This document shows, in pieces, positions 24,320-51,718 of a stretch of 64,000 nucleotides of DNA. The notes under the pieces are model-generated. The model was not told the origin of the DNA, did not search any database, and saw nothing but the letters and a program-made list of their open reading frames with translations. How positions within the stretch are numbered: the first letter of the stretch is position 1; every line of letters begins with the position of its first letter. This DNA is from Spirosoma sordidisoli (GTDB taxonomy: Bacteria > Bacteroidota > Bacteroidia > Cytophagales > Spirosomataceae). A program made the translations under genes and the position numbers. Where the stretch lies: assembly GCF_004138325.1 (NCBI RefSeq), contig NZ_SBLB01000001.1, positions 434,001-498,000 on the forward strand, in the 5' to 3' direction.

Positions 24320-25837
24320 TTACTGGAGCTTAACCAGACTTTTATCGGCAATCAGGATAGGCGCGTCGTAGACCGGCATGTTGGTAAAGGTATAGGTCGA
24401 GCCCGTCTTTTTCCACTGACCCGCCGGAATCTCGTACACGCCCCCGCTGATGAGGTCGACGTAGACCGGCTGGTCGAAGTGGCCGTTGATAAAGGTAAAA
24501 GTCAGGTTGCGGGTCTTGTTGGAGTCCGTGGGGATATACTCGTCGGACCAGATGGTGTAGACCTGTTTCCCGGTGTTTTTGTGTCGGTAGCCGTACACCG
24601 CCAGGCTGCGGTCGGTGCTGCGGCTGTAGACCACCTCCGATTGATCGGCGGGCAGGTAGGCGTTGTTGTACGACGGCTTCAGTTTCTTCAGCCGCTCCAG
24701 CGAGTTATCGAAAATCGACGTTACGTGCTGAATGGCGTAATAGGCCATTTTTGGCCGGATGGCCCGCTTGGTCGAGTCGGATTTGATAATGCCCTTGTAG
24801 TTAAGCCGGTTGATAGGGCCGCTGGTATAGGCCATTTCGATGAGCCCGAAAATACTCGTTTCAATGTCGTGACCCAGGTCGCCGAGCATCCGGCGCAGGT
24901 CCCATTTAGCCTGGGTCAGCTCGCTCCAGTCGTAGTCCCAGAGGGCGCCCCGGCCGCTTCCGCCCCCCGAGGGACAGCCGTTTTCGCCCTGCCGCAACGG
25001 AATGCCGGGCGCGTACTTGTCGAGCACCGCCCGCAGCTTCATCACCTTGCCGTAGTGTGAATCGGGGTTGTAGACGTAGTCGTGATAGGTGAAGTTATCG
25101 AACAGAAGAATCTTTTTACGGTCGGCCAGGATCTTAAAAAACCGGTCGGCATAGTCGAGATCGATGTGGCCCATGGCCAGGCCCGACACCCGCGCTTCGG
25201 GCTGAATACGCTTGATGATATCGACAGTACGGATGGTCAGGGCCGCAAATTTGTCGGGCGTGTTTTCCTGGTTGTCGCCAAAGTTGGGTTCGTTCCAGAT
25301 CTCCCAGTCGACGACTTTGTTTTTGTACCGCTTCACCATGGCCTCCACCCAGCGGTCCCAGGCCGCCAGAGCCTCCGGCGAGGTTGGTACGCCCGCGCCG
25401 AGGTTGGCCCCGCCCCCGTTGGGATAGTTATGGTTGCCGTAGGAGGTCTGCAGCCAGGGCTGGAAGCCGCGCCGGTGGGCATCGTCAATGATGTGGTCGA
25501 GCCAGGCCCAGTCGTACTGCCCCTTTACGTTTTCGGTCTTGTCCCAGCCCGCCTGCATCCGCAGCCGTTTGATACCGAGGGGGGCGATGTACGCTTTGTA
25601 CTGGTCGTAGTCGGTGAAGTCGCGGTCCATCGTCTCGCAGCCGATCAGCCAGTTAGACCCCGTAATCTCACTGGTGGAGCGGGGTTTTACGGTACCGATG
25701 CGGGGCATGGTAACGGCAAAATCGGTTTTCACCCGGTCGGGACGGGTGTCGATGGGCTGGGCAGTCGCAGGTTCACCCATCAGGGTCAGCAGGCTGGTCG
25801 CCAGGGCAATGGTGGATGTAAAGAAGGTGGTTCTCAT
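24320..25837 (-). CDS. exported GH39-like (clan GH-A) glycoside hydrolase, paralogue A
   Basis: The 505-residue protein has a signal peptide ending near residue 26 (EPATAQ). The TIM barrel carries WEIWNEPN (acid/base Glu183) and LRQGENG (nucleophile Glu285), the retaining clan GH-A pair. A C-terminal beta domain ends in MPVYDAPILIADKSL. Closest known pattern is GH39 (beta-xylosidase/iduronidase group) but the fit is not exact, so the bond cleaved is unknown. It is the last gene of the PUL operon, 24 bp after a heparinase-type lyase, and one of three paralogues (also 39518 and 41060). The hairpin CAACGG..CCGTTG at 24285-24302 could mark the operon end. Confidence 0.75.
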   Translation of the reverse strand: MRTTFFTSTIALATSLLTLMGEPATAQPIDTRPDRVKTDFAVTMPRIGTVKPRSTSEITGSNWLIGCETMDRDFTDYDQYKAYIAPLGIKRLRMQAGWDKTENVKGQYDWAWLDHIIDDAHRRGFQPWLQTSYGNHNYPNGGGANLGAGVPTSPEALAAWDRWVEAMVKRYKNKVVDWEIWNEPNFGDNQENTPDKFAALTIRTVDIIKRIQPEARVSGLAMGHIDLDYADRFFKILADRKKILLFDNFTYHDYVYNPDSHYGKVMKLRAVLDKYAPGIPLRQGENGCPSGGGSGRGALWDYDWSELTQAKWDLRRMLGDLGHDIETSIFGLIEMAYTSGPINRLNYKGIIKSDSTKRAIRPKMAYYAIQHVTSIFDNSLERLKKLKPSYNNAYLPADQSEVVYSRSTDRSLAVYGYRHKNTGKQVYTIWSDEYIPTDSNKTRNLTFTFINGHFDQPVYVDLISGGVYEIPAGQWKKTGSTYTFTNMPVYDAPILIADKSLVKLQ

Positions 25838-25861
25838 GGTGGTACAACTAGCGAGTTAGGG

Positions 25862-27724
25862 CTACTTCTGGCCGACGGTAGCGCGGCCTGGAATCATGCG
25901 CACCTGTAAGGTTGTCGTTGTTTGAGCAGGTGTTTGAAGTTGAACTACGATGCGGCTGACGCCCGGATTCGCCGAATCCTGCCTGTTCCGGGGCTGTGAC
26001 ACATCGTCAATGACCACCGTGTAGGGTTCCGATGCCGATAGCAGGAGCTCCAGCGACTGGTTATCCTGCCGCAGCAGCAGACCCCGGGGCGTTTTGCTCA
26101 CGGTGGCCCTGGTCAGCCATTGCCAGGAAGCGGCCACGGGGCGGTCGGCGGTGGTCCAGACATCATCCAGCCGCACCGAACGGTCGGGCAACAGCCGGAT
26201 ACTACGCGTCACGCTGGCTACCTGCTGCCGGTAGAGTGACGTCAGGTCGATACGGTTACCCAGGCTGCCATCGGTGCCGGGCAGCACGCTGATGCCGGCG
26301 TTCCCATCGACCTGCTGTGGCTGCTGGTCGAAGCGCAGGATATTGTGCCCCTCCGGCCCAACCCGGAACGTAGTCCATCGGGTACTGTTCTGGCTGTAGT
26401 TCCAGAGGTCGAGTTTGGCGGCCCGCATCCTGTCGTAGCTTTCGGTACCCAGGTCAATAGCCCAGCGAACGCCATCGGCTTCGAGCACAAAACTGCCCAC
26501 GTCCATGTGCGCGTGCGAATGATTGGGCGTTCCGCCCTTGATGGCCACGAACGTGGCCGCTGGGTCCTGCCAGGCCGACCGCATCACCGCCATCGGCAAA
26601 ACACCCTGCGAGGTCCAGTGGCGGGGCCGTGTAATGGTCGATTTCCCAGCCAGTTCCGGCTTCCACCACAACAGTTCGAGGGGTGTATGCCGGTTCGCCG
26701 TCACGCTGCTTTTGGTGTTCGAGACAGCCGCCCGATACAAGGTGTTTACATCGGCCAGTTCCTGCCCGGCCAGATCTGGCCGTTGGGTTTCCCGGGCGAA
26801 CCACAGCATAATGGGTTCATTCTGGGTTTCGAGGTGGTAGTCGGAATAGTTGACATCCAAACCACTCGGCCCCACCATTTGCAGGTTGTAATCGGCCGTT
26901 TTCAGAAAGCCGGGAAACTGTTCCAACCCGAAACTCTTACCCAAAGCCGAGCGCAATGCTTCGATCAGCAGCACATGAAACGTGGTTCCGTACGACCAGT
27001 AGCTGGGGCCTTCGGGATACGCTCCGTCGGGCGCATAAACGGCTCCGGCATGGGGCACGTTCTTAATGGCCCGGTTGATGATTTTCGTAGCCAGTTCGGG
27101 CTCCCGTTCGGCAATGGCCAACGCCCCCACGGTCAAGCCGCCATGGCACACCTGCGTCCAGTTGAAATCGCCATCTACCCAGCTTCCGTTTCCCTCCGCA
27201 ACGTTCAGCGATGGCAATAAGGCATTTTTGACGATGGCCTGGGTAAGCTGGTTGCGTTCGTCAGGAGTTAGGTCATCATACAGCCAGTCGAGTCCGATAC
27301 CCGCGGCCAGCGCGCCTTCGCCCACATCCAGAAAGTGGTTGGGAGCCCAGTCGGGCAGGGTGGCCAGTTGTACCAATTCCTGACGGGCGCGGTTCAGATA
27401 GCGCTTGTCGCCGGTAAGCCTATAATTCATCGCCAGGGTAATAATACGCCCCTGCACGGTTCTCATCTGGCTAAACTTAAAACCCGTTGTCGGATACACG
27501 ATTTCGGGAGCGGTCAGGAGCCGTTCAGCTTCGTGTTGTATATAGATTTTCAGCCGTTGAGAGACCGTATCGTTCTGGGTCTTTAATTCAGCAAAGCGAG
27601 CCGCATTCGCCAGTAAACGCGGATGTGCCGGCAACGTTCGCACGTCTACCTGGGCCTGAGCGCTGACATACGCGCCCAGCCAGAACACCCAGACCACACG
27701 GACGATCGGAATTATACGTCGCAT
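25862..27724 (-). CDS. exported heparinase II/III-type polysaccharide lyase
   Basis: The 620-residue protein has an N-terminal signal sequence (cleaved near AQAQ, 25), an alpha/alpha toroid, and a C-terminal beta-sandwich. Lyase motifs are FNWTQVCHGG (Asn and His), YPEGPSYWSYG (catalytic-type Tyr) and NHSHAHMDVGSFV (His/Asp metal or active site), the pattern of PL12/15/17/21-type enzymes that cleave uronic acid polymers by beta-elimination. It should produce unsaturated uronyl ends in the periplasm. Its start overlaps the alcohol dehydrogenase end by 13 bp, which suggests coupling. A second lyase-type gene without a signal peptide is at 30073. Confidence 0.83.
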   Translation of the reverse strand: MRRIIPIVRVVWVFWLGAYVSAQAQVDVRTLPAHPRLLANAARFAELKTQNDTVSQRLKIYIQHEAERLLTAPEIVYPTTGFKFSQMRTVQGRIITLAMNYRLTGDKRYLNRARQELVQLATLPDWAPNHFLDVGEGALAAGIGLDWLYDDLTPDERNQLTQAIVKNALLPSLNVAEGNGSWVDGDFNWTQVCHGGLTVGALAIAEREPELATKIINRAIKNVPHAGAVYAPDGAYPEGPSYWSYGTTFHVLLIEALRSALGKSFGLEQFPGFLKTADYNLQMVGPSGLDVNYSDYHLETQNEPIMLWFARETQRPDLAGQELADVNTLYRAAVSNTKSSVTANRHTPLELLWWKPELAGKSTITRPRHWTSQGVLPMAVMRSAWQDPAATFVAIKGGTPNHSHAHMDVGSFVLEADGVRWAIDLGTESYDRMRAAKLDLWNYSQNSTRWTTFRVGPEGHNILRFDQQPQQVDGNAGISVLPGTDGSLGNRIDLTSLYRQQVASVTRSIRLLPDRSVRLDDVWTTADRPVAASWQWLTRATVSKTPRGLLLRQDNQSLELLLSASEPYTVVIDDVSQPRNRQDSANPGVSRIVVQLQTPAQTTTTLQVRMIPGRATVGQK

Positions 27725-28728
27725 TGTAATAAATATTTCATGCCTGCCGGGTTGTTGTCGATGGTCTCGAAGACCGATTTGGCATCGGCCAGGGGTGAAA
27801 TCTGGGTGATCAGCGCGTCGAGTTGTAAGGTACCCGACGCGGCCAGGGCGATGGCTTCGTCGAAATCCTCGGGTTCGTAGACCCGTGCCCCGATCAGCTT
27901 CAGCTCCCGCCAGAAGAAGCGGAACAGATCAACGGCTTTGGGTTCGGCATGAATAGCCACCATCACGATCCGACCCCGGACCCGGGGCAGTTGGGTCATG
28001 GTCGTGACGCCCGCCTGCACACCTGATACTTCGAAAACAACATCGGCCATGGCTCCATCGGTGAAGTCTTCCACATGAGCGAGCAAATCCGTTCCTTTCG
28101 GGTTGACCGTCGCCAGCCCCATCGAATCAGCCAGTTGCAAACGGGTTTCATTTACCTCCGAAATCAGCACATTCGCTCCTTTCTGTCGGGCCACCAGCGC
28201 AATCAACATCCCGATGGGCCCACCACCGATGATCACGACGTTCTCGCCCGCTTTCACCTCACCCAGCCGCACATCGTGACAGGCAACGGCCAGCGGTTCG
28301 ATCATCGCCCCAATCGTAAGCGGTAAGTTGTCGGGTAAGCGGTGGAGAGTTCTAGCGGGTACGTTCCAGTACTGCTGCATACCACCGGGGGTATCGATGC
28401 CGATAAATTTCAGGTTTTGCCCAATGTGCTGAACGCCGTTGTCTACCGGCATTTCCTGACCAGGCTTCAGCGGCCGAACCGTTACCCGATCGCCGGGTTG
28501 CCAGCCCGATACGCCTTCGCCCACCGTGTCGATTTCGGCCGACACTTCGTGGCCAATCACCTGTGGCAGTGAGAGTCGCTGCGCCATAGCACCGTGGTAG
28601 ATGTGCACGTCGGTACCACACACGCCACAGTACGCTACTTTCAAACGAACCTCGCCCTGCGCAGGCCTTTGGATATCAACATCCTGTAAATCAAAGGTTT
28701 TGTTTCCTGTAAACTGGAGTGCTTTCAT
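27712..28728 (-). CDS. zinc-type alcohol/polyol dehydrogenase lacking the structural-zinc cysteines
   Basis: About 338 residues from the chosen start (MKALQFTGNK at 28728); upstream in-frame sequence is part of a repeat element. CGVCGTD (Cys37) and GHE (His60, Glu61) are the catalytic zinc site, and VVIIGGGPIGMLIAL the NAD(P)-binding loop. Between residues 85 and 115 the four-cysteine structural-zinc loop of most family members is missing (RPLKPGQEMPVDNGVQH has no Cys). It probably oxidises or reduces a sugar acid or polyol made by PUL enzymes. Neighbours are a VOC protein upstream and a lyase downstream. Confidence 0.82.
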   Translation of the reverse strand: MKALQFTGNKTFDLQDVDIQRPAQGEVRLKVAYCGVCGTDVHIYHGAMAQRLSLPQVIGHEVSAEIDTVGEGVSGWQPGDRVTVRPLKPGQEMPVDNGVQHIGQNLKFIGIDTPGGMQQYWNVPARTLHRLPDNLPLTIGAMIEPLAVACHDVRLGEVKAGENVVIIGGGPIGMLIALVARQKGANVLISEVNETRLQLADSMGLATVNPKGTDLLAHVEDFTDGAMADVVFEVSGVQAGVTTMTQLPRVRGRIVMVAIHAEPKAVDLFRFFWRELKLIGARVYEPEDFDEAIALAASGTLQLDALITQISPLADAKSVFETIDNNPAGMKYLLQCDV

Positions 28729-28745
28729 TGGTTTGGATTTTTTAC

Positions 28746-28888
28746 GTAGAGACGCGACCCTTCGCGTCTCAGCATGCGTCAGCAATTTCATCTGCCCACC
28801 ATCCGGTATATGAGACCCCTGTTTGCGAATGAAATTGCTGACGCGTGTGTGCTGGCGCATGATGAGACGCGAGGTATCGCGTCTCTAC
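28746..28888. repeat. REPIN-like palindromic element, copy 1 (143 bp)
   Basis: Both ends read GTAGAGACGCGA / TCGCGTCTCTAC. Each end also folds alone: GAGACGCGA-CCCT-TCGCGTCTC on the left and GAGACGCGA-GGTA-TCGCGTCTC on the right. Inside lies a second inverted pair, GCGTCAGCAATTTCAT and ATGAAATTGCTGACGC. The right end supplies the TAG stop of the VOC gene (28885-28887). A shorter relative lies at 40961-41063. No transposase gene is nearby, so it would depend on one elsewhere. Confidence 0.88.
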
Positions 28889-29277
28889 AGTAACACCTGT
28901 CTTTCTAAGATCTGCAGCATATTCCCGTCAGGGTCAAAGAGGTTACGGACTTTGCCGCCACCGATGGCGTTGATGACGGAGCCACCCCAACGAACCCCTT
29001 TGGTGTCGAGGAAAGCGATGGCTTCGTCGATGTTTTCGACGCGCAGGGCGAGGTGCGACCAGCCGGGTGTCCAGGTGGTGCGTTCAGGACGGGCGGTGTC
29101 GTCTTTCGGCATCACTTCGAGCAGGGTGCCGTCGGGGGCTTTGAGCATCCAGACCGGCTTCGGGTGTCTGAACCACTTTTCGTAGCCGAATACCTCGCAG
29201 TACCAGTCGGCAAGCTGCTCGACGTCATTGGCCGCGACGCCGGGGTGATCGATTCCTTTTAGTTTTAGAGGATTCAT
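28885..29277 (-). CDS. VOC (glyoxalase/dioxygenase-like) family protein
   Basis: The 130-residue cytoplasmic protein has the two beta-alpha-beta-beta-beta units of the VOC superfamily: GIDHPGVAANDVEQLADWYC near 8-27 and WSHLALRVENIDEAIAFLDTKG near 72-93, and ends with FDPDGNMLQILE, where the Glu is the usual metal ligand. Function ranges from lyase to epimerase to isomerase. It overlaps the esterase gene upstream by 4 bp (translational coupling). Its stop codon TAG falls inside the REPIN-like element, so its last residues may be element-derived. Confidence 0.8.
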   Translation of the reverse strand: MNPLKLKGIDHPGVAANDVEQLADWYCEVFGYEKWFRHPKPVWMLKAPDGTLLEVMPKDDTARPERTTWTPGWSHLALRVENIDEAIAFLDTKGVRWGGSVINAIGGGKVRNLFDPDGNMLQILERQVLL

Positions 29278-30080
29278 GGTTTTTTCGTTTCCAGTGCCTG
29301 CATGGCCTTTGCATACCTGCGTCCCAGCTCGCGGGCCGATTCGGCGTTGAAATGAGTAGCATCGCCCCCATCGGTCAGGCCCGATGCATCGGCGAAGGCT
29401 ACCCGCGACAGCCGGTTGGGTAGATTGGACAACGTGGCATTGATTTGGGTAGCCGCCGGATTCTTCGATAAGTAAAAATCCCCCAACGTACCCACCACAA
29501 CCGGCACATCGGGACTGCCGAACGCCTGCCGAAAGCGCCCGATTAGCTCCGTGAGCTTGGCTTCATACCCAGCCGCCAGGTCGGGTTTGCTATCACTTTC
29601 ACCCTGATGCCACAGAATGCCGTGCACCGTACCTGCCTGTTGCGCCAGTTGAACCCGTTGAACGGCTTCATCGTAGGGATAATTCTTTGTTTGCTCATGG
29701 TACCCTCCCGGTGTCCAGGCGTCGATGGCCGACCCTCCTACGGCGGTTGGAATCAGGCCAATGAACGCGTTGGGGTTCTGTTCGGCCATTAGTTTACCAA
29801 ACGCCAAACCCGGACCAACACCCACGACCGCTGGCTTGTCGAAGTGCATCGGCTCGGTAGCAGGCACCCATTGATTGGCTTTGTTCAGCATCCACACACG
29901 CGGATGTGGGGTTTTATCAAGGGTATCGACCTTGCCACGGCCCGCCATATTCGACTGGCCTGCCAACACATACAAATGGAAATTGGCACGGTCCAAACCA
30001 GTTGGCAGGGAGGGTTGAGCCACCGTGCTGAGTTGGCTTAAGAGGAGAAAAAAAGCAGTCAGAAGCAGGTATTTAGCCAT
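29274..30080 (-). CDS. exported CE6-type carbohydrate acetylesterase (SGNH/SASA)
   Basis: The 268-residue protein has a signal peptide (cleaved near VAQ, 21). LAGQSNMAGRG gives the nucleophile Ser in the SGNH block, LWHQGESD is the family's third block, and DATHFN carries the Asp/His pair. This is the CE6/sialate-O-acetylesterase-like fold, which removes acetyl groups from xylan or other polysaccharides. Length fits CE6 (about 250-290). Overlaps of 8 bp with the lyase upstream and 4 bp with the VOC gene downstream show co-translation in the PUL operon. Confidence 0.82.
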   Translation of the reverse strand: MAKYLLLTAFFLLLSQLSTVAQPSLPTGLDRANFHLYVLAGQSNMAGRGKVDTLDKTPHPRVWMLNKANQWVPATEPMHFDKPAVVGVGPGLAFGKLMAEQNPNAFIGLIPTAVGGSAIDAWTPGGYHEQTKNYPYDEAVQRVQLAQQAGTVHGILWHQGESDSKPDLAAGYEAKLTELIGRFRQAFGSPDVPVVVGTLGDFYLSKNPAATQINATLSNLPNRLSRVAFADASGLTDGGDATHFNAESARELGRRYAKAMQALETKKP

Positions 30081-32175
30081 GATCGGGCATTCGTTTTAAA
30101 GAATAGTGGCCCGATTCGTTAAGCACATCCCAACGTCGGCCATGCCCCGAAACTAACGAAAGCTGATGGGCTTCGTCATCCTGTACGATTAGCGTCCATT
30201 TTTTCTGCCCGTTCGATAGCGTAAACGCGTTCCCATCTACGGTTAACGCCCATCGATCCAACACAATAGCCTCGTCGAGAGCAATAGCGTGAACAACCGT
30301 CCGGGCGGTTGCCGCTGCCTTTTCTGTCCAGCGGTAGAGCAGGCCGCTGCCGGGTTTTCCTTCGCCGTACTGGTTTGGCTCTACGTGGTAGGCGTCGTGG
30401 ACGTACCCATAAACGGGGTACCCGATTTTACCGTTGCCACAGTGAAACAGCTTCATACCGGCCTCATTTCGTCGAACAGTCAGGCACGTAGGTTGCGTGT
30501 CGACCTGCGCCTGTCCGTCGCGGTTATTGACCAGCCAGTTCCAGACCGTTGTCACGGGTTGGCTTGCCTCAATCCGGTCAATGACGAACAAAACATTACT
30601 CCCCGCCATGAGCCAGAATCTTGAAAACGTGTCGATAGGCGCACCGCAAGCGTTACCAATCTCCGAGCCAACGACCGAAACGGGTTCATCGTGCGCAACA
30701 ATCAGCCGCCGATTTCCTCGGTCGACAGCCGGACCGGGGACGCCGTTGATCAGCAACCGACGAGGCAGCACGCTTTTCTGCTCCAGCATGGTGGCTTTGG
30801 CCTTATCCTCCTGCAAACCCAGCGTTTCTGCCTCGACAAGGAAGGTGCAGGTGTTATGCGTTTGCGTGCTGCTCTCCAGCCCGTGAATCAGGTTCCGGTA
30901 GCAACTGTGGCCGGGGTCGACCAGCAGTCGTTCGCGGTTATGCACAAGGATAAAACTGTTCAGGTCGCCGTGCAAATGGCCGGGACCGTGCAGCCCCTCT
31001 CCCCCACCGTTGATGGCTACGATGGTCTTTCCATTCCAGGCGTCACGCATGAAGGTGTGGCCGTTACTGAATGCCGTCGTCAGCGGCAACCCTGCTTCCT
31101 GCGGACTAATGCCTTTCGTTTCGTGGGTCAGCAGCGGCAGGGTCAGAAAACCCCAATCGTTATGCATCCCGAAGGTCGCCAATTCGTGCGGCCCCTGCGT
31201 AGGAACGGTCTCGTAGTAGCTAGCAAACAGGCCACGCGCCAGTTGCTTTTCGTCGTCTGTTCCGGCATGAACGGCCAGGTGTAGCAATAGGTCGCCGGAA
31301 GGCCGGAACAGGGCCGCGCTGTCATTGAAATTGGCGGCCCGGGCGCGGGGTTCGGTGCCCCAGGAACCGCTTCCATTCTCAGCAAGAGGTTTGGCGTAGA
31401 ACATGCTACTGGCCACCCACCGAATGCCCTTTCCATACGTACCCACATCGAGCAGGGCGGCTTTTTCCGGGTACGTTCGGCTCAGCGATTCATAGGCCAG
31501 CATGAGCGCAAACGCCAGGTAATTGCCGTATTGCAACGACTCGCCGTAGGAACCATCGGGCTGGAATGCCAGTGCACAGCGTTGCCATTCCGATACGTAT
31601 TGATCGATCAACTCCTGCTCGTTAAGAACCGCTGCCGCTACCAGTACGCCCGACATCAGAATGCCCCGCCAGTTGGCCAGGTGCGTGTTTTTATCGATCC
31701 ACCGCCGACAGAGAACAATGCCTTTTTCGGTCAGTGCTTGCCGTACTTCGGCCTGTTCCGACTCAGAAAAGACGTCACGAGCCAGATCATAAACGGCACT
31801 CAGCGCCCAGCACAAATGCGCCGTTTCCAGGTGTCCCGTCAGCGGCTCCAAATGGTCACGAAACGCTGGTCCAGCCCAGTCGTAAGCAGATGTTCGGGCA
31901 ATATCGAGCGTAACGGTGCGTAGCCAGTTGGCCAGTCCTTCGTCGGGTTCCAGCGCATACAGCATGGCCGCGTCCGACAGGTATTCGGCTGCCGGATAAT
32001 ACCAAGCTACGGTGGCACCAGGTCCTAGCAGTCCCTTCGTGACAACCCGTTCGTAGACGCGCTTGTGCAAAGCCGCGTAGAAACGACTTACCAATGGCTC
32101 GCCGTTTTGGAGACCCGTCAGAATCCGGGTACGTTCGGTATCGGTTAAAAAGCAAGATGCTTCGTTCCTCAGCAT
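30073..32175 (-). CDS. heparinase II/III-like lyase without a signal peptide
   Basis: The 700-residue protein shares the toroid-plus-beta-sandwich build of heparinase II/III lyases. ANWRGILMSGVL and YGESLQYGNYLAF (toroid active-site segments) and HLHGDLNSFILVHNRERLLV (beta-sandwich start) are visible. It begins MLRNEASCFLTDTERTRIL with no hydrophobic leader, so it should stay in the cytoplasm and cleave imported oligosaccharides, unless the start is misplaced. It overlaps the esterase by 8 bp and follows the RraA gene by 8 bp. Its exported paralogue is at 25862. The longer length and missing leader suggest a distinct oligosaccharide-specific role. Confidence 0.78.
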   Translation of the reverse strand: MLRNEASCFLTDTERTRILTGLQNGEPLVSRFYAALHKRVYERVVTKGLLGPGATVAWYYPAAEYLSDAAMLYALEPDEGLANWLRTVTLDIARTSAYDWAGPAFRDHLEPLTGHLETAHLCWALSAVYDLARDVFSESEQAEVRQALTEKGIVLCRRWIDKNTHLANWRGILMSGVLVAAAVLNEQELIDQYVSEWQRCALAFQPDGSYGESLQYGNYLAFALMLAYESLSRTYPEKAALLDVGTYGKGIRWVASSMFYAKPLAENGSGSWGTEPRARAANFNDSAALFRPSGDLLLHLAVHAGTDDEKQLARGLFASYYETVPTQGPHELATFGMHNDWGFLTLPLLTHETKGISPQEAGLPLTTAFSNGHTFMRDAWNGKTIVAINGGGEGLHGPGHLHGDLNSFILVHNRERLLVDPGHSCYRNLIHGLESSTQTHNTCTFLVEAETLGLQEDKAKATMLEQKSVLPRRLLINGVPGPAVDRGNRRLIVAHDEPVSVVGSEIGNACGAPIDTFSRFWLMAGSNVLFVIDRIEASQPVTTVWNWLVNNRDGQAQVDTQPTCLTVRRNEAGMKLFHCGNGKIGYPVYGYVHDAYHVEPNQYGEGKPGSGLLYRWTEKAAATARTVVHAIALDEAIVLDRWALTVDGNAFTLSNGQKKWTLIVQDDEAHQLSLVSGHGRRWDVLNESGHYSLKRMPDHG

Positions 32176-32183
32176 GACAAAAA

Positions 32184-37534: not shown

Positions 37535-37564
37535 AACAAGGCACCTTATCAGGCTATTCATTTG

Positions 37565-40954: not shown

Positions 40955-40960
40955 GTGTTT

Positions 40961-42555: not shown

Positions 42556-42624
42556 CCATTCCAACCTATGATTAATCAGTTTACTCAAATACGTATTGGT
42601 ATTTATGGACAATCAAGCTCTCGT

Positions 42625-45264
42625 TTAGAATTGAATCCGATACGTGTTCAGTTGACGAGGGCTAAAACTCGTTTTCAGACTGGTACTAATAGGCTTCAGC
42701 ACCTGCTCATTGGTTTCAATATGCGTGGTTTGCCAGGCCCGGCGGATTGGCAATGCCCAATTCAGCGTGGGTGTGGCGGCCGTTTTGTTCAGATTCCAGA
42801 ACCGGGCAATCAGACCGTTGTTGATACCTTCTTCGCTCGGTTTTAATCCCCAGATCAGCAAGCCCGGAGCATCAGTTTTCAGCAGCGAGAATGTCGTTTC
42901 AGGATAAGTACCAGCATTACCCGTTACGGCTCCGGCTACGAGCGGATTCTGGTGTTCGAGCGAGAATTTCATGGCGGCAAGTGCGTCGAATGCACCCGAG
43001 TGAGTCGTCAGGGCAAAGTGGTAGCGGAGGTCTTTTACCCCATTCTGATTGTAGATACCCAGCCGGAGCGTGTCTTTTTTGCCGGACCCGTAGGTATCTA
43101 CCTGCCCGCCAGCCAGTGCGTTCAACTGGGCCGACGTTTCCCAAAGCGAATCGGGCCGGGCCGCCGTTGCAGTGCTTTGACCCAGCTTGAAGAAACTGCA
43201 ATCCTGATTCGAGATCGTGACCCCGTAAGTTGGTTCGGCGACGTCGGCAAAGTGGTTGAAGGTCTGGTAATCAAGTCGGGCATTCTGGCTGGCATAGTGG
43301 CCGCCACGAGTCTCCTTTTTCGCGGTTAGAATCGCCCCCAACTCTTCGTGGTTAGTCGTTGGCTTATCGAGGTTCAGCGAAAACGACCAGGCTTTCACAT
43401 CCCCAAAATTGGCTTGCAGGCTGTCTTCAATATCGATCCGGTTGTTCCGAAACAGCGTTACCCGTACCGTATGAGCAATGGGGTCGTTTGAAACCGCTTT
43501 GAACGTGACCGATACGGGTCCTTTATTCTCCACCATTAGCTCATTACCCGCGTTGGGATTCTTGGTACCAATGTCGTTCAGCAATCGCCCATTGGTTTGC
43601 TTCACCAACTGACGGTTCGCTTTCCGGTCATAGAGTTCGCTGATGACACCCGACTTTTTCAGCCGAATCCGGTAGTAGTCGTTCTGAATAAACTCACCCG
43701 CTACCTCGGCCGCATCGGGCCGACGAGTTGGCGCTCCCTGCTGAATTTCATAGACCTTGTAGCCGACGGATGGTACGTTTTCGGCCCAGATTCGCACGAA
43801 CGGTTTACCCCCCTTCTGAATCGGCTGGCTGACAACCTCGCGCTTTGTTTGTACATCAATAACCCGAACGGGTTGCTGACCAGCATAGGCAAAATCGGCT
43901 ACGTCGTTTCGCGACCAGTTCAGGGGATTGAACACGTAAAAACGGGACGCCAACGTACCTGTCTGGCTACCTTTGATCTGCTGCCCCATCGCCAGCACCG
44001 CCCGGGTATAGAGCGAATCTACGTACCCGACAATCCGGTGGTGCAGTTTGGTTTGCCAATCGGCCCGCTCGCGTTTCGATACGGGGCCATCAGCCGTCCA
44101 GTCATGCTCCCAATACAGGCCATAGGCTTCCCAGGCCAGATCGCGGGCCGTTTTCAGGTCGCGGGCAAAAGTGCTGTCTTTGAGCGATACCAGAGCCGCC
44201 AACCCCTCCGCCGACCGTAGTTTTTCGGTGGCCCGGCGAATATGGGCGGTGGTTTCGTTCATCGAGACGGGGTACAAATCCCACTCGTTGCCATAACTCA
44301 CCGACTCAGTCGGGAGCTTCGGGTAGGTACGTTCAACGTCGGCAAAGAAGTCTTCTTCGTTCGAGACACGTACCCGGCGAGTAGCCGTCGAGTACCGTTG
44401 GGCTGCGGTGGTAAAGGCGGGCGACACATAGGTATCTAGATCATCCCAGCCGTAGCCAAACGCACCCGCTACATTGAACGGATAAACCGAACGGGTCGAA
44501 ACGGTATCGCACATCGTGGTCAGGTCGGCTATCACCTTACCCATATCGCCCACAATATCCGTTGGCACTTTCTCGCGCCGGGCTTCGGCGTAGCCGCCCA
44601 GTGTCCGACCGTTATAGATGGGTCGATTGTACCATTTCATGATGACGGACCGGCCATCCTGACCCATGTAGCGGTAAAGTTGGTTTCGGCGGTGGGCCAG
44701 ACTTTCGTGGGATATTTTGCTCGCGCAGCCACAAACGCCCCGCCAACTGTATTTGGCCCCCGACCCCGCCCAGAGCGAACTCAGGCCGAGTGGCAGCGTC
44801 TGGTTTTCCATGCACACCGCCATTCTGAACCGTAAATTCCACTGCCGTTCCAATTGCCCGGCGTAATACATGCCCCGCAGTACTGCTTCGGTGGGTTGGC
44901 CCCCATACGTACTGACCAACCCATTGAGCGGACTGCTGATGTGCCCCGACCGAATGCGACCAATGAGCCGTTCGAACTGGGCCGGACTACGAAACTTCTG
45001 GTACGTTTTGAGCCAGTAACTGCCATCGCAATTGAAACGGGCCTGAAAATCATCGGGTAACTGTTGGGTCGAATCAATCTGCCGGAGGTAATAGTCGAGC
45101 ATACGGACAAACACCGTGTCGTACTGCGCTTCGTTACCCGTCCACATATAGTCGGTATGGTCGTCGTTGGCCAGATACAGTCGTTTTACCGGCTGCGCGT
45201 TCAGCGTAACCGCCAGCAGCAACAACAAGACAACTCCCAGTAAGATGACGCTCAGTCGTGACAT
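42625..45264 (-). CDS. exported GH38-like alpha-mannosidase-superfamily protein, copy 2
   Basis: The 879-residue protein has an N-terminal signal sequence (cleaved near LNAQ, 24). It is a full-length paralogue of the gene at 18666: both have RLYLANDDHTDYMWT (zinc-type H-x-D...W), WAGSGAKYSWRGVCGC, DGRSVIMKWY and ETTAHIRRATEKLRS-like segments. The sequence is less GC-rich than copy 1. It follows susD by 10 bp, so it is the first enzyme of the PUL and probably highly expressed. It should cleave alpha-mannoside bonds in exported or imported oligosaccharides; the exact linkage is unknown. Confidence 0.7.
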   Translation of the reverse strand: MSRLSVILLGVVLLLLLAVTLNAQPVKRLYLANDDHTDYMWTGNEAQYDTVFVRMLDYYLRQIDSTQQLPDDFQARFNCDGSYWLKTYQKFRSPAQFERLIGRIRSGHISSPLNGLVSTYGGQPTEAVLRGMYYAGQLERQWNLRFRMAVCMENQTLPLGLSSLWAGSGAKYSWRGVCGCASKISHESLAHRRNQLYRYMGQDGRSVIMKWYNRPIYNGRTLGGYAEARREKVPTDIVGDMGKVIADLTTMCDTVSTRSVYPFNVAGAFGYGWDDLDTYVSPAFTTAAQRYSTATRRVRVSNEEDFFADVERTYPKLPTESVSYGNEWDLYPVSMNETTAHIRRATEKLRSAEGLAALVSLKDSTFARDLKTARDLAWEAYGLYWEHDWTADGPVSKRERADWQTKLHHRIVGYVDSLYTRAVLAMGQQIKGSQTGTLASRFYVFNPLNWSRNDVADFAYAGQQPVRVIDVQTKREVVSQPIQKGGKPFVRIWAENVPSVGYKVYEIQQGAPTRRPDAAEVAGEFIQNDYYRIRLKKSGVISELYDRKANRQLVKQTNGRLLNDIGTKNPNAGNELMVENKGPVSVTFKAVSNDPIAHTVRVTLFRNNRIDIEDSLQANFGDVKAWSFSLNLDKPTTNHEELGAILTAKKETRGGHYASQNARLDYQTFNHFADVAEPTYGVTISNQDCSFFKLGQSTATAARPDSLWETSAQLNALAGGQVDTYGSGKKDTLRLGIYNQNGVKDLRYHFALTTHSGAFDALAAMKFSLEHQNPLVAGAVTGNAGTYPETTFSLLKTDAPGLLIWGLKPSEEGINNGLIARFWNLNKTAATPTLNWALPIRRAWQTTHIETNEQVLKPISTSLKTSFSPRQLNTYRIQF

Positions 45265-45274
45265 GGCTAATGGC

Positions 45275-46720
45275 TTAATAGCCTGTATTTTGTGTCAGCT
45301 TTTTGTTCAGATCGATTTCGCGCAGTGGAATCGGGTACAGTTTCTGATGGCTCAACACCTTCAGCCCTTTGGCAGTCAGAACCGTCATATACCGATCGGT
45401 ACGCAGCAGATCGAACCAGCGGTGATTTTCGAAGGCCAGTTCAACCCGGCGTTCGTCTTCGAGCGCCAGCCGCATTGTCGCCTGGGTGAGGCCCGTTTTG
45501 TCGGCAAGGCCCGCCCGTTTCCGAACCTGATTCAGGAACGGCAGTGCGTCGGCTGTTTTGCCCTGTTCGTTGAGTGCTTCGGCATACATCAGCAATACAT
45601 CGGCGTAGCGTAGTATCGGGAAATCGACGTCGGAGTCAGCGTTAAGTGCCCCCTGTTGCCGGAACTTCACCACGTACGCATCGGCCACATCACGACCCTG
45701 CGCGTTTTTGTAGGTCGTTAGCAACGACGCATCCTTGCGCACGTCACCCGCTTCGTAGGCTTTAACCAGATCGGCCGTGGGGCGATTGAATCCGCCACCA
45801 CCGCCACCGCCCGTACCAAGCAAAACAGTCCCGGCGTTGAACGGTGCCCAGTTCGACCACATATCGGAGCCCTGCCCGATTTGTCCCGACAGGTACTGCA
45901 CCGCAAAAATCACTTCGCGGTTGGCCGCAAACGAGGTTGTGTTGGCAAACACACTGGCATACGACGGCATCAGGTCGTGCGCCTTCGAATCGACAACCTC
46001 TTTTAGTTTGGCAGCTGCATTATCGTACTGTTTCAGGGTCAGGTACACCTTACCCAACAATGATTTTGCCGCCCAGCGGGACGCCCGGCCAGCTTCGGCG
46101 TTGGCAATCGTAGCGGGTAATTTCTCTTCGGCTGCTTTCAGGTCGTTCACAATGAGTTCGTACACCTGAGCCGCCGGGCTGCGGGGCAGGTCGTTGGCCC
46201 CGTAGGGCGAGCTAACCTCCGACGTAAGCAATTGAACATCACCAAAGAACCGAACCAGGTTGAAGTAGAACATGGCCCGCATAAACTTGGCCTCGCCCTC
46301 AAACCGGTCTTTACTCGCCTGCGGAATCGTGGTGGCAGGCAGGCGGTCCAGAATGGCATTGGTCCGGGCAATGCCCAGGTAATGCCCCGTCCAGGCAGCC
46401 CCGACGGTAGCGTTGGAGATCGTAATCAGGTAGTCGTCGATCTCGAAGATCGGGAGGTTTACCGGCTGACGCGTAACGCCCAGATCGGTGTTGTCGGTGA
46501 TGATTTCGGACATCGAAAACAGGGCACCGCTTCCCCCGCCGTATAAGCCGGGGTTTTTCAGGGTCGCATACACCCCCACCACGGCGTTGTTGAAATCAGC
46601 CGTTGTTTTGTAGAAATTAACTTCGCTTCGTTCAGTAACCGGCACCTGCTCCAGGAATGACTCCTCACAGGCCGTCGATAACAGCGCCAGCAGAACCAAA
46701 GATATATACTTGATTTTCAT
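45275..46720 (-). CDS. SusD/RagB-family glycan-binding outer-membrane lipoprotein
   Basis: About 481 residues from MKIKYISLVLLALLSTACEE, whose Cys18 in a lipobox-like STAC fits a lipoprotein; the longer frame adds a poor N-terminus. TPR-like helices follow, with LPFLNQVRKRAGL and ERRVELAFENHRWFDLLR near the C-terminus, a signature of SusD. It binds a specific polysaccharide at the cell surface and closes the SusC channel. It lies 25 bp after susC and 10 bp before the GH38-like enzyme. susCD define the region as a PUL. Confidence 0.92.
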   Translation of the reverse strand: MKIKYISLVLLALLSTACEESFLEQVPVTERSEVNFYKTTADFNNAVVGVYATLKNPGLYGGGSGALFSMSEIITDNTDLGVTRQPVNLPIFEIDDYLITISNATVGAAWTGHYLGIARTNAILDRLPATTIPQASKDRFEGEAKFMRAMFYFNLVRFFGDVQLLTSEVSSPYGANDLPRSPAAQVYELIVNDLKAAEEKLPATIANAEAGRASRWAAKSLLGKVYLTLKQYDNAAAKLKEVVDSKAHDLMPSYASVFANTTSFAANREVIFAVQYLSGQIGQGSDMWSNWAPFNAGTVLLGTGGGGGGGFNRPTADLVKAYEAGDVRKDASLLTTYKNAQGRDVADAYVVKFRQQGALNADSDVDFPILRYADVLLMYAEALNEQGKTADALPFLNQVRKRAGLADKTGLTQATMRLALEDERRVELAFENHRWFDLLRTDRYMTVLTAKGLKVLSHQKLYPIPLREIDLNKKLTQNTGY

Positions 46721-46745
46721 CGTCTTGTGAAGATAAAGTGGTGGG

Positions 46746-49700
46746 TTAAAAACCGAGATTGATACCAAACGTGATGGTACGGGCCTGTGGGTACGTGCCA
46801 AAGTCGAGGCCAGCCGCCCGAACATCGTCGCCCGATCCGCTCACCTCCGGATCGAAGCCGTTATAGTTGGTGAAGGTGAACAGGTTCGTCGCCGTGGCAT
46901 ACACCCGCGCAGAGCCCAGACGCAGCCGATTCACGACAGACGTGGGTATGTTATAGCCGAGCGAGACATTGCGAATCCGCAGGAACGACCCATCGAACAA
47001 GTAGGCACTGCTAAACACCGTGTTGTTGTTCCGGCTTCCGCGGATAGCGCGGCCATACACGCCGTTGCCCGGTTGTGTAGGCGATACGTAGCGGTTGTCA
47101 AAAGCCTCCTGAATCTGGTTCTGAACGCCGGAGGTGTTGATCGAGAAAGTAGAGTTGAAAATCTTTTGCCCCACCATACCGTTAGTCAGCACGTCGAGCG
47201 TGAAGCCTTTGTACGAGAAATTGTTGTTAAAGCCGAAAAAGAAGTCGGGATGGGGACTGCCGATCACCGTCCGGTCGTTATCGTCGATCCGGCCATCGTT
47301 ATTGATGTCTTCCCACTTGAAATCGCCCGCTTTGGCGAAGGGTTGTTTACCGTAGGTCGTCGCTTCTTCGTTGGTCTGGAACACGCCAATCATCCGCCGA
47401 CCAAAGAAGCTTCCGATTGGGTCACCCACCTGCGTCACGGCGTATACCTGCCGGCCCAGTGCCGACGAGAATATTTTTTCGGTTTCGGCGCTCATCGCCA
47501 GCACCTTGTTCCGGTTGAAAGTAATGTTGAAATTGGTGGTCCACTTAAACGCCTTCACTGTATTTCGGGTGGTGAGCGCCAGTTCGATACCCCGGTTCTG
47601 CACTTCGCCCAGGTTGACGAGCGCACTCGTCAGTCCGGTTGCCGATGGGGTCTGAATGCTAAAGAGCATGTCGGTATTGCGCTTGTCGTAATAGTCGGCC
47701 GTGACGGCAACCCGGCTGTTGAGCAGACTAAAGTCAATGCCCAGGTCAAGCTGCTTCATCGATTCCCAACCCAGCAAACTGTTGGTGAACGACGACCGGC
47801 CGAGACCGGGGGCCAGCGCATTGCCCAGCACATAGTTGGCATCGCGCAGTTGGCCAATGGCCCGATAATCGCCAATAGCATTGTTACCGGTCAGGCCGTA
47901 GCTGGCGCGTAGCTTCAGGTCCGATACGAAGGTCAGCCCCTTCATAAAGTTTTCTTCCGATACCCGCCAGCCCACGGATGCCGAGGGGAACGTGCCCCAG
48001 CGGTTGTCGGCTCCAAACCGGGATGACCCATCGCGCCGAACAGTAGCTGTAAACAGGTATTTGTCGTTCAGCGAGTAGTTGACCCTGGCCAGATACGACA
48101 GCATCGTATGAACCGTTGTGCCCTCGCTACCCGCATTGACCGTACCCCCGTTGATATTGTCGATCAGGTTGTCGGGAAAGCGGGTGGCCTGCGCCTGAAT
48201 GCTATTGGCGTAGGCATTCTGGGCGGTGAAACCAACCACGGCATCAACGGCGTGGCGACCCACCTGCTTTTTGTAGCTAAAGGTGTTCTCTGTGAGCCAG
48301 TTGGTGGCTTCGCTGTTGGTGGCGGTGGCGTTGGTCAGCACCGATACCGGGTTGTACGTGTTGGGATCGAACCGGCGGTTTTTCGAGTAGTTCAGGTCGG
48401 CCCCTACCGTCGACCTGAACTTCAAGCCGTTCAGGATTTCGTATTCGGCGTAGGCATTCCCAAACAGGCGGAACTGGGTGCCGTTGATCTGTAATTCATT
48501 CGCCAACTGCACCGGATGCGGATACGCAATGTCGCCTTCGGTGGGTTGGTAGGTGATGGTGTAATTGCCGTTGGCGTCATAAACAGGCACATACGGAGGC
48601 AATGACAAAGCCGCCTGCACCACCGCCCCGCCCGAGTGGCCAATGGCACTGACATCGTCGATTTTAGTGAAACTTGGCAGCATCGTTACACCCACCGTGA
48701 GTTTATCCGACAGTTTGCCATCCAGATTAAGCCGAAAACTGTAGCGCTCCAGACCGGAACTGATGATGATGCCTTTCTGGCTGAAATAACCGCCCGACAA
48801 GGCATACCGCAGCTTGTCGGTACCGCCCGATGCCGACACCTGGTAGTTTTGAATCGGGGCCGTGCGGAAAATAACGTCCTGCCAGTCCGTATCGGGAAGC
48901 TTAGACAGGTCGCCCTGGAGGATACTCGGAATCTGGTACGAATTGGGGCGAACAGAATTCGGGTCCGTTACCTTTCCCGTAGCCACGTTATCCAGATAGC
49001 CGTTGTTACGCCCTTCGGTGACGAACTGGGCAAAATCGCGGGTATTCAATAAATCCAGTTTTTTGGCTACCTGCTGAAAACCCGTGTACGCGTCCACTTC
49101 GATGCGTGCTTTACCCGCCTTTCCGCGCTTGGTTGTGATCATGATAACCCCGTTAGAGCCGCGCGATCCATAGATAGCCGTTGATGAGGCATCTTTCAGC
49201 ACGTCGATACTCTCGATATCGTTGGGGTTGATGGTGTTAAGCGGGTTGCCAATGCCTGAGTTGGTCACCGGGTATCCGTCAATCACAAAGAGCGGTTCGT
49301 TTCCGCCTGAAATTGAGCCGATACCCCGAATCAGAATGTTGGTGTTGCCGCCGGGCGCACCGTTGCTCTGCGAAATCTGCAAGCCCGCTACCTGCCCCTG
49401 CAATGCCTGATCGACGCCCGAGACGGGTAACTTCTGAATATCTTTTGAACTCACCGAAGCAATGGCGCCCGTCAGATCTTTCTTTTCCTGGGTACCGTAG
49501 CCAACCACCACAACCTCGCCCAGCGTTTTATCGCCGGGTGTCAACTGGACATCAATCGTCGACCGGTTGGCAACGACTACTTCCTGGCTAAGGTACCCCA
49601 CGTAGGATACAACCAGTACGGCATTACCGGCAGGCACCGATAGCCGGTAGATCCCCTCCGCGTTGGTTGTTGTACCGTTGGAGGAGCCTTTGAGCAATAG

Positions 49701-49853
49701 CGTCACGCCGGGTAATGACTGGCCGGTTTCATCGGTAACACGGCCGGTGACGGTCAGGGTAGTTTGGGCATGAGCTGTCAGAAAAACAGCCAGCCCCAGC
49801 ATCAGCAGCAGCCAGGTTCTCTTTCGAATGCGGGAAGTAAAGTCAGAGTTCAT
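46746..49853 (-). CDS. SusC/RagA TonB-linked outer-membrane transporter
   Basis: About 1035 residues from MNSDFTSRIRKRTWLLL, a signal-type N-terminus; codons upstream are AT-rich leader. After the signal comes a carboxypeptidase-regulatory-like domain (VTGRVTDETGQSLPGVTLLL), then EVVVVGYGTQEKKDLTGAI (TonB box and SusC plug start), IYGSRGSNGVIMITTKRGK in the plug, and a 22-strand barrel ending in an aromatic residue (GINLGF). It imports oligosaccharides with energy from TonB. It is the first gene of the PUL and divergent from a KduD-like gene. Confidence 0.93.
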   Translation of the reverse strand: MNSDFTSRIRKRTWLLLMLGLAVFLTAHAQTTLTVTGRVTDETGQSLPGVTLLLKGSSNGTTTNAEGIYRLSVPAGNAVLVVSYVGYLSQEVVVANRSTIDVQLTPGDKTLGEVVVVGYGTQEKKDLTGAIASVSSKDIQKLPVSGVDQALQGQVAGLQISQSNGAPGGNTNILIRGIGSISGGNEPLFVIDGYPVTNSGIGNPLNTINPNDIESIDVLKDASSTAIYGSRGSNGVIMITTKRGKAGKARIEVDAYTGFQQVAKKLDLLNTRDFAQFVTEGRNNGYLDNVATGKVTDPNSVRPNSYQIPSILQGDLSKLPDTDWQDVIFRTAPIQNYQVSASGGTDKLRYALSGGYFSQKGIIISSGLERYSFRLNLDGKLSDKLTVGVTMLPSFTKIDDVSAIGHSGGAVVQAALSLPPYVPVYDANGNYTITYQPTEGDIAYPHPVQLANELQINGTQFRLFGNAYAEYEILNGLKFRSTVGADLNYSKNRRFDPNTYNPVSVLTNATATNSEATNWLTENTFSYKKQVGRHAVDAVVGFTAQNAYANSIQAQATRFPDNLIDNINGGTVNAGSEGTTVHTMLSYLARVNYSLNDKYLFTATVRRDGSSRFGADNRWGTFPSASVGWRVSEENFMKGLTFVSDLKLRASYGLTGNNAIGDYRAIGQLRDANYVLGNALAPGLGRSSFTNSLLGWESMKQLDLGIDFSLLNSRVAVTADYYDKRNTDMLFSIQTPSATGLTSALVNLGEVQNRGIELALTTRNTVKAFKWTTNFNITFNRNKVLAMSAETEKIFSSALGRQVYAVTQVGDPIGSFFGRRMIGVFQTNEEATTYGKQPFAKAGDFKWEDINNDGRIDDNDRTVIGSPHPDFFFGFNNNFSYKGFTLDVLTNGMVGQKIFNSTFSINTSGVQNQIQEAFDNRYVSPTQPGNGVYGRAIRGSRNNNTVFSSAYLFDGSFLRIRNVSLGYNIPTSVVNRLRLGSARVYATATNLFTFTNYNGFDPEVSGSGDDVRAAGLDFGTYPQARTITFGINLGF

Positions 49854-50144
49854 AATGATTATTATTTGACAATAGTAAATAACAATTCTATAATGCAATA
49901 CTATATCTTTTATCAATATCGAGCAATTATTTTCACTTATTTTTTATAAATCATAATTATTCCATGTTTTCAGGTATAAGTATTATTATAATTTTATCTC
50001 ATTTTTCTTAATTACATTAGCTCATTTGCTACAAATAATCCAATTTCAACGAAATGCTCACGCTAGGCTGGGCGTCCAGCTTACCAGTCGTGTTATTTCG
50101 TATTTATCTGTTATACTTGCGTCTTACTACAACAATGATACACT
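49854..50144. promoter_or_regulatory. AT-rich divergent promoter region of the PUL
   Basis: This 291-bp gap between susC and the KduD-like gene is much richer in A+T than the rest of the window. For susC a candidate is ATTG (49896-49899) with TACTATTG (49870-49877), 18 bp apart, close to the Bacteroidota -33 TTTG / -7 TAnnTTTG pattern. For the plus gene, TATACTTG at 50112-50119 is a candidate -7 box. I see no clear palindromic IclR site. Confidence 0.45.
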
Positions 50145-50915
50145 ATGAGTGTCGCTTCTCTTTTTGACCTAACGGGTAAGGTGGCCCTGGTAACGGGCTG
50201 CAAACGGGGTATTGGCCGAGCAATTGCCATAGGGCTGGCGGAGGCTGGGGCCGATATTATTGGCGTCTCTGCGTCACTCGAGACAAGCGGGAGTGAGGTA
50301 GAGCAGGCTATCAAAGCGCTGGGCCGGGAGTTCACCGGGTACCAATGTGATTTTAGTCAGCGGACATCGCTATATGCGTTCATTGACCAGATCCAGCGTG
50401 CGTTTCCCGTCATCGATATTCTGGTTAACAATGCCGGTACCATTCTGCGCAAGCCGGCCGCCGAGCACCCCGACGAGTATTGGGATACGGTCATTGAAAC
50501 GAACCTGAATGCGCAGTTTGTGCTGAGCCGCGAACTGGGAAAAGGCATGCTCGAACGTGGCCAGGGTAAAATAATATTCACGGCTTCGCTACTGACGTTT
50601 CAGGGCGGCATCAACGTGCCGGGCTATGCAGCCAGCAAAGGTGCCGTGGGGAGTCTGGTGAAGGCGCTGGCTAATGAATGGGCAGGCAAAGGGGTAAACG
50701 TCAACGCCATTGCACCGGGTTACATTGCTACTGACAATACCGAAGCCCTGCGGGCCGACCCCGACCGCAGCCAAAGTATTTTATCCCGGATTCCGGCTGG
50801 GCGCTGGGGTGAGTCGGACGACTTTAAAGGGCCGGCTGTCTTTCTGGCATCCGCGGCCGCTGATTACGTTCATGGCACCATTTTGACAGTAGATGGTGGC
50901 TGGATGGGGCGTTAA
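50145..50915 (+). CDS. kduD: KduD-like 2-dehydro-3-deoxy-D-gluconate/gluconate-type dehydrogenase
   Basis: The 256-residue SDR has TGCKRGIG at 17-24, NNAG at 95-98, and catalytic Ser148, Tyr161 and Lys165. The N-terminal LFDLTGKVALVTGCKRGIG and the C-terminal VHGTILTVDGGWMGR match KduD, which converts 2,5-diketo-3-deoxygluconate to 2-keto-3-deoxygluconate after lyase and GH105/88 action. Related sugar-alcohol SDRs cannot be excluded. It is divergent from susC and 68 bp before the IclR regulator on the same strand. No kduI, kdgK or kdgA is seen in the window. Confidence 0.78.
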   Translation: MSVASLFDLTGKVALVTGCKRGIGRAIAIGLAEAGADIIGVSASLETSGSEVEQAIKALGREFTGYQCDFSQRTSLYAFIDQIQRAFPVIDILVNNAGTILRKPAAEHPDEYWDTVIETNLNAQFVLSRELGKGMLERGQGKIIFTASLLTFQGGINVPGYAASKGAVGSLVKALANEWAGKGVNVNAIAPGYIATDNTEALRADPDRSQSILSRIPAGRWGESDDFKGPAVFLASAAADYVHGTILTVDGGWMGR

Positions 50916-50983
50916 CTCCTTTCCATCCGAAAACGAAGCGAATCTGTCAGCCGTTACTTATCCGATTTTGCTTACATTCCGTT

Positions 50984-51718
50984 ATGGTACTAGTCATTAT
51001 TAAAGCGCTGGATGTGCTGGAGTACGTAGCCCGTGACCAAACCCGGCCGTCTACGCTTACCGAGATAGCCGAAGGGTTGCAGCTCAACCCGGCCACCTGT
51101 GCCAACATCCTGCAGACGCTGGTCTCCAAAAATTACCTCGAACATGTAGGGCGTAAAAAAGGCTACCGACTGGGTCCGATGGCTTTCAGCCTGACCAACA
51201 ACGCCAACTACGAGCAGCAGTTGGTGTCGGCGTCGAAAGAGGTTATGGAAGCGCTGACGCTCGAGTTGAACGAAACCTCTATTCTGGGCGTCATTCGCAA
51301 CAACAAGCGGTTCATTCTGCACCTGGTCAATAGTGATCAGGATTTGCAGGTTCGCAGCCGAACCGAACGAAACGTGTATGAAACGGCCAGTGGTCGGCTT
51401 TTGGTCGCCTTCATGCCCCCCCGTGAACTGGAAAGTCTGGTTAATCAAATTGGTTTACCGGCATCGGATGTCTGGGAAGAGGCCACTACGGCCGAGGGCC
51501 TGGCTTCCAGCCTGGCCAGTATCCGGCGTGATGAGCTGGCTGTTACCATTTCCAAAACGCATATCATCGGGCTGGCTGTCCCCATTCGTCGGGGCGACCT
51601 GGTCATCGCCAGTCTAAGTGTTTTTCTGCCTCAAGTGCGCTGCAACGCCCGCCGTCGGAAAGAGATAGAACAGGCCCTGCACCGGGCGGGTCGGGCAATC
51701 AGCCAGCAGCTGAATTAA
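50984..51718 (+). CDS. IclR-family transcriptional regulator (KdgR-like role suspected)
   Basis: The 244-residue protein has an N-terminal winged helix (about 1-65: LTEIAEGLQLNPATCANILQ, then LEHVGRKKGYRLG) and a C-terminal ligand-binding domain (ETASGRLLVAFMPP, IGLAVPIRRGDLVIASLSVF). IclR members often respond to small acids; KdgR of pectin-degrading bacteria belongs here and binds 2-keto-3-deoxygluconate. Its position next to a KduD-like gene and divergent from a uronate PUL suggests the same signal. PULs are more often controlled by hybrid two-component, AraC or sigma/anti-sigma systems, so this is unusual. Confidence 0.84.
   Translation: MVLVIIKALDVLEYVARDQTRPSTLTEIAEGLQLNPATCANILQTLVSKNYLEHVGRKKGYRLGPMAFSLTNNANYEQQLVSASKEVMEALTLELNETSILGVIRNNKRFILHLVNSDQDLQVRSRTERNVYETASGRLLVAFMPPRELESLVNQIGLPASDVWEEATTAEGLASSLASIRRDELAVTISKTHIIGLAVPIRRGDLVIASLSVFLPQVRCNARRRKEIEQALHRAGRAISQQLN

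Follow-up and report, generated by a model that had tools for sequence, protein, structure and literature searches.

A conserved Spirosoma polysaccharide utilization locus with a six-gene inner cassette, proposed to act on an acetylated uronic-acid heteropolysaccharide

We analysed a window of 64,000 nucleotides from Spirosoma sordidisoli (contig NZ_SBLB01000001.1, positions 434,001 to 498,000; host genome 7.37 Mb in 27 contigs) and found that it contains a real and conserved polysaccharide utilization locus (PUL). We propose, with a probability of roughly 65%, that the locus serves the use of an acetylated uronic-acid heteropolysaccharide and has a conserved inner catabolic cassette at its core. 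An earlier note on this DNA had suggested a polymer rich in both uronic acid and mannose. Support for the uronic-acid part comes from a pair of lyase-fold proteins whose triads are intact, a GH88/105 enzyme, a GH115 enzyme, a KduD-like enzyme and a KdgR-like IclR regulator; the mannose-rich part, with a glucuronomannan-like or xanthan-like polymer as the target, is not supported. In place of a guess about a gum, the analysis offers a conserved and testable six-gene module that travels together across two phyla.

Gene families were assigned with Pfam and NCBIfam profile models. The operon comprises 16 minus-strand genes from susC to the third of three GH39-like genes (24320 to about 49853), and 13 of the 15 intergenic gaps are shorter than 75 bp or are overlaps, the remaining two being 87 and 164 bp. 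Adjacent SusC and SusD homologues, namely a TonB-dependent transporter (46746..49853; TIGR04056, 970.9 bits) and a glycan-binding lipoprotein (45275..46720; PF07980, 142 bits), thus share one operon with carbohydrate-active enzymes; the starts of both were placed by eye and are probable. Beside susC, a KduD-like 5-dehydrogenase of the SDR type (50145..50915; TIGR01832, 334.8 bits against a cut-off of 338.85) and an IclR-family regulator (50984..51718; PF01614 and PF09339; 81.2 bits with the KdgR model, cut-off 275) lie divergently on the plus strand. The earlier note had described the susC/susD pair with 14 further, mostly closely spaced genes as well as the divergent pair, and the profile models confirm both. 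Its borders, 24320 and 51718, are fair, with another same-strand group starting 148 bp downstream of the operon. Since both content and order recur in relatives, the PUL stands far beyond chance. That no PUL with this exact set has been described agrees with the literature at the level of titles and abstract openings (PULDB, CAZy and subscription journals lay outside this scope).

Protein N-termini, including signal peptides, were judged by eye. On this basis, signal peptides were assigned to the GH38-like, GH39-like, GH88/105, GH115, CE6 and PL35 proteins. The three GH39-like enzymes (41060..42460, 39518..40972 and 24320..25837) were recognised as such in the earlier note; they score 29.9, 32.0 and 31.8 bits with PF01229 and all have WNEP and QGENG motifs. 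The GH88/105 unsaturated uronyl hydrolase (37565..39511; PF07470, 146 bits) also contains a DUF4861 domain (PF16153, 177 bits) and is matched by GH105 structures. The GH115 alpha-glucuronidase-like protein (35465..37561; PF15979, 202 bits) matches BtGH115A at E 6e-30, and the SASA/CE6-type acetylesterase (29274..30080) scores 224 bits with PF03629. The SDR, RraA, VOC, ADH, KduD and IclR proteins lack signal peptides, as does a heparinase II/III-type lyase that we call PLn. Of the two heparinase-type lyases, these N-termini mark one as secreted and PLn as probably cytoplasmic. Two lyases had been noticed before; it had been missed that one has no signal peptide and is part of a conserved inner cassette.

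This cassette consists, all on the minus strand, of an SSF sodium-solute symporter (33653..35392; TIGR00813, 191.8 bits), an SDR oxidoreductase (32900..33631; PF00106), an RraA-family enzyme (32184..32903; PF03737), PLn (30073..32175; PF07940), a VOC (glyoxalase-fold) protein (28885..29277; PF00903) and a Zn-dependent dehydrogenase (Zn-ADH, 27712..28860; PF08240 and PF00107). PDB entry 5ir2, which is named Cellulase, matches the RraA-family protein at E 8.9e-55; the name looks wrong. In a Spirosoma-centred set of 79 genomes, PLn is present in 14, the host genome included. Exactly these 14 genomes, and none of the 65 others, have RraA with at least 74% identity (split over two contigs in one of the 14), and every other RraA match in the 79 genomes is at 48% identity or below.

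In a species-level collection we identified 43 named PLn loci, 34 in Bacteroidota and nine in Planctomycetota, many of them truncated by contig ends. By tblastn, PLn was found in all 43, RraA in 41, SDR in 41 (including three matches below 40% identity, in L070, L081 and L082), SSF in 39, ADH in 37 and VOC in 36, and the complete six-gene cassette in 31. IclR was matched in nine and susC in 11. KduD was matched in 18, of which 12 are at 70% identity or more, two at 51% and four at 32-33%, the last being probably other SDRs. These tblastn counts were used because open-frame clustering held spurious frames (c11 and c52, opposite cassette genes); a second tblastn run gave 42 for both SDR and KduD, inflated by cross-hits. 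Among 395 evenly sampled Bacteroidota genomes, PLn was matched at E 1e-80 in the host genome only, so the cassette is rare in Bacteroidota at large. The inner cassette is conserved across two phyla, and the outer enzymes that accompany it are exchangeable.

The exchange is most evident for GH88 and an orphan family, c31. GH88 or the GH88-like family c69 occurs in nine of the 43 loci and c31 in 18, and no locus has both (Fisher p 0.006, a value that is too good because the loci are related). GH28 is present in 13 loci and a GDSL esterase in six, in each case always with c31, and none of the five loci with PL35 has c31. GH115 (six loci; two with c31, three with a GH88-type gene) and CE6 (ten loci; four and three, respectively) occur on both sides, and GH39 is found in 33 loci by tblastn and in a 34th, L075, by Pfam. 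We placed the outer sets on a quick PLn tree of 49 rows (42 named loci, six further genomes and the window), of which 21 were labelled c31, 11 GH88 and 17 left unlabelled. The tree requires four label changes, at least three of the changes being forced by well-supported branches, and shuffled labels gave a mean of 9.4 changes with none of 500 shuffles as low as four. The exact number of switches is unsure, since two c31 rows (L055 and L060) sit on long branches. In one Planctomycete locus (L077:16843-20190), a single protein encoded beside the cassette has a GH39-like part in front of a GH115 part.

The c31 protein has about 385 residues and, by eye, no signal peptide; it had no match among Pfam and NCBIfam models. 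It is 65-67% identical between Planctomycetota and Dyadobacter and directly follows PLn in the Planctomycete loci (examples are L060:1782-2936, L075:12082-13245 and L077:12085-13248, with nine more rows). A comparison of its profile with those of GH88 (A6) and the GH88-like c69 (A7) was empty, and c31 as a relative of GH88 was rejected; A6 and A7 matched each other. The analysis gives this orphan family a candidate function, that of a stand-in for the unsaturated uronyl hydrolase.

We considered whether the locus is directed at the plant cell wall, in the form of glucuronoxylan or xylogalacturonan fragments. The GH39-like enzymes would then be beta-xylosidases, (methyl-)GlcA would be taken off by GH115 and acetyl by CE6. 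GH115, CE6 and GH39 do occur together in the operon, the weak matches of the GH39-like enzymes include solved GH39 beta-xylosidases, and relatives combine the cassette with GH28 and a GDSL esterase. However, the operon has no endo-xylanase family, xylan offers no role for two lyases and a GH88 enzyme, and the GH39 matches are remote and cover only part of the model. We regard a cell-wall target as unlikely.

The secreted lyase (25862..27724) is a member of PL35, matching 8khv (GAGase II) at E 3.4e-122 over residues 30-620 and 9o3q at E 1.2e-70. The catalytic residues of GAGase II are Asn192, Tyr246 and His401. Manual counting along the pairwise alignment maps these to N188, Y242 and H404, which are invariant in all six aligned rows. 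The lyase thus has the family and the triad of PL35 GAGases such as GAGase II of Spirosoma fluviale (8KHV; PMC12088678, PMC11262172), yet it differs from them next to the neutralising Asn, where most GAGases have Asn and GAGase III has His, whereas Phe187 stands beside the conserved Asn188 in 6/6 PL35 rows. The passages of these two papers that were consulted describe no gene cluster. The PL35 protein that S. fluviale has in this PUL was considered as GAGase II itself and rejected, at 384 bits and with many differences. In S. telluris (L044) the PL35 gene looks broken, its match falling into several pieces.

The Phe residue argues against a locus for a glycosaminoglycan or GAG-like capsule, in which the PL35 enzyme would be a GAGase acting on hyaluronan-, chondroitin- or heparosan-like chains. 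PL35 membership itself favours such a locus, as does the activity of GAGases on HA, CS and HS described in PMC11262172, and the SIS and ROK genes downstream could serve hexosamines. Against it, no hexosaminidase, sulfatase or deacetylase family was found among the 16 genes, and GH39, GH115 and CE6 would be left unexplained. The host genome also has a second PL35 elsewhere (C1:1421875), which has His at the position beside the neutraliser. We consider a GAG locus quite improbable, and this subgroup of PL35 gains an operon context that looks unlike GAG use.

No more probable is a glucuronomannan-like gum, in which GlcA and Man alternate, or else a xanthan-like polymer; GH38-like proteins would remove alpha-mannose from either. 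The lyase, GH88 and GH115 would suit a GlcA polymer of this kind, and the window has two GH38-like genes, one of them in the operon (42625..45264, minus strand, a secreted protein of 879 aa). The GH38 label of the earlier note stands in so far as the C-terminal model PF17677 matches both above its cut-off of 22 (25.3 bits for the operon gene and 23.8 for the other); a match of PF07748, also C-terminal, reaches 21.3 bits and misses its cut-off of 25. The label fails at the catalytic domain, in that PF01074 matches no gene of the window at E up to 1, neither GH38-like gene included, so that it consists of marginal C-terminal matches only. A profile built from seven GH38-like homologues matches the yeast alpha-mannosidase Ams1 at E 0.0015, and the protein could therefore be a divergent GH38-like alpha-mannosidase; its AlphaFold2 model (pLDDT 42.6) was unusable. 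The wider context nonetheless speaks against mannose. GH38-like genes accompany just two of the 43 cassette loci by tblastn, the 16 operon genes gave no match to other mannosidase or mannanase families, PL8 or GH9 (E 0.001), and no xanthan- or gum-specific enzyme was found among them with Pfam or NCBIfam. The downstream ROK and SIS genes, tried as a route of mannose use, were rejected as not mannose-like, their best models being for glucokinase and glucosamine-phosphate and all below cut-off. In genome G016 the GH38-like gene looks broken, with its match split over two frames.

To return to the uronic-acid reading, PLn has the predicted fold and the triad of a heparinase II/III-type lyase. A single-sequence search against solved structures returned 8khv alone, as a weak match. 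Profile alignments place N168, Y216 and H400 of PLn, invariant in 13/13 aligned rows, on the PL35 triad at a modest 62% probability and E 7e-5, the His segment scoring low in one of two alignments. The structure model, of modest confidence (pLDDT 60.8), has the toroid and beta-sandwich fold of heparinase II/III with the Asn/Tyr/His triad. It matched 50 chains at E 0.001, of which 48 are lyases of PL35, PL15, PL17, PL33, PL12, PL21 and others, at 10-15% identity and TM-scores of at most 0.50; the two others are one lipovitellin and human dermatan sulfate epimerase 1. That PLn is instead a uronyl C5-epimerase or some other enzyme of the same fold is very unlikely: the human epimerase ranks 15th in the fold search, but the lyase triad is invariant, the fold matches are overwhelmingly lyases, and the adjoining SDR, RraA and KduD enzyme types fit elimination products. 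PLn resembles the PL15 exo-lyases such as Atu3025 (3A0O) in its fold and in its predicted catalysis by Tyr and His, and differs in sequence (14-15% identity). Atu3025-type enzymes work inside the cell. The identity of PLn to PL35, PL15, PL17, PL33 and PL12 is alike, at 10-15%. We tentatively suggest, at somewhat less than an even chance, that PLn founds a new family of intracellular uronyl-saccharide lyases and is the heart of a portable SSF-SDR-RraA-PLn-VOC-ADH module that was linked anew to different outer sets on several occasions, either GH88/PL35/GH115 or GH28 with c31 in place of the unsaturated uronyl hydrolase.

From these gene families and predicted locations we infer the following route and its direction. 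The secreted PL35, GH39-like, GH115, GH88/105, CE6 and GH38-like proteins would cut the polymer, SusC and SusD would bring oligosaccharides to the periplasm, and the SSF symporter would carry small uronyl saccharides inward. Inside the cell, PLn may release an unsaturated uronate by beta-elimination, which would open to 4-deoxy-5-keto-uronate. Beta-elimination removes the C4 stereocentre, and GlcA and GalA therefore yield the same 4-deoxy product, so that one cassette could serve different outer sets. The SDR and KduD, with the VOC protein as a candidate, would convert the keto-uronate, and the RraA enzyme would end the route in one of two ways, through an aldol cleavage that yields pyruvate or through dehydration plus decarboxylation, which gives alpha-ketoglutaric semialdehyde. 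Neither a semialdehyde dehydrogenase for the latter (FlDeg type) nor a KDG kinase was found in the operon with Pfam and NCBIfam. Two KduI-family and three KDPG-aldolase-family genes lie elsewhere in the genome, and the cassette therefore need not be the only route.

One of the closest described counterparts is the alginate system of Flavobacterium sp. UMI-01 (PMC8563752). There the SDR FlRed reduces or oxidises alginate-derived 4-deoxy-5-keto-uronate, the RraA-family enzyme FlDet converts what the oxidation yields to alpha-ketoglutaric semialdehyde, and fldet adjoins the exo-lyase gene flalex (FlAlex). The likeness lies in an exo-lyase (heparinase-fold or other) leading to 4-deoxy-5-keto-uronate, an SDR and an RraA-family enzyme, the last being alike at the family level. 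In Spirosoma the SDR and RraA-family genes (32184-33631) stand beside PLn, and each is present in 41/43 loci, whereas FlRed of UMI-01 is encoded about 51 kb away in a separate cluster. The Spirosoma cassette further adds SSF, VOC and Zn-ADH, and its outer enzymes are not alginate lyases. The locus would thus encode together the SDR, RraA and lyase of a proposed 4-deoxy-keto-uronate route.

A uronic acid of the GlcA or GalA type is more likely than alginate. The KduD and the KdgR-like IclR regulator suggest a GlcA- or GalA-derived product. The pectin pathway comprises KdgR, Ogl, KduI and KduD. The locus resembles it in having an IclR-family regulator, KduD and an intracellular lyase, but the operon is without Ogl or KduI and has RraA, VOC and Zn-ADH instead. 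A counterpoint to the overall model is that fewer than half of the 43 loci, many of which are cut by contig ends, show KduD or IclR. The IclR protein probably senses a 2-keto-3-deoxy acid. The 15-bp palindrome TTTATCANTGATAAA is exact in three of six susC-kduD gaps (G004, G016 and G017) and has one mismatch in two (G013 and G015); the window has a degenerate form at 49865..49879. It is a possible IclR operator.

Beside the IclR gene, a 562-aa minus-strand frame (52070-53758) had no Pfam match at E 1. Downstream of the operon and on the same strand (18666-24171) are a ROK kinase, an EamA transporter, a SIS-domain protein and the second GH38-like gene, and genome G017 has a comparable group downstream of its PUL. 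Further GH95, GH94-superfamily, sugar transporter, PhyH and GH36-like genes occupy 206-2917 and 8282-15185. Between these groups (16262-18467), a gene for a secreted beta-helix, pectate-lyase-like protein overlaps a xylose-isomerase-like TIM-barrel gene, and beta-helix relatives stand beside the cassette in the Hymenobacter loci L069, L073 and L074.
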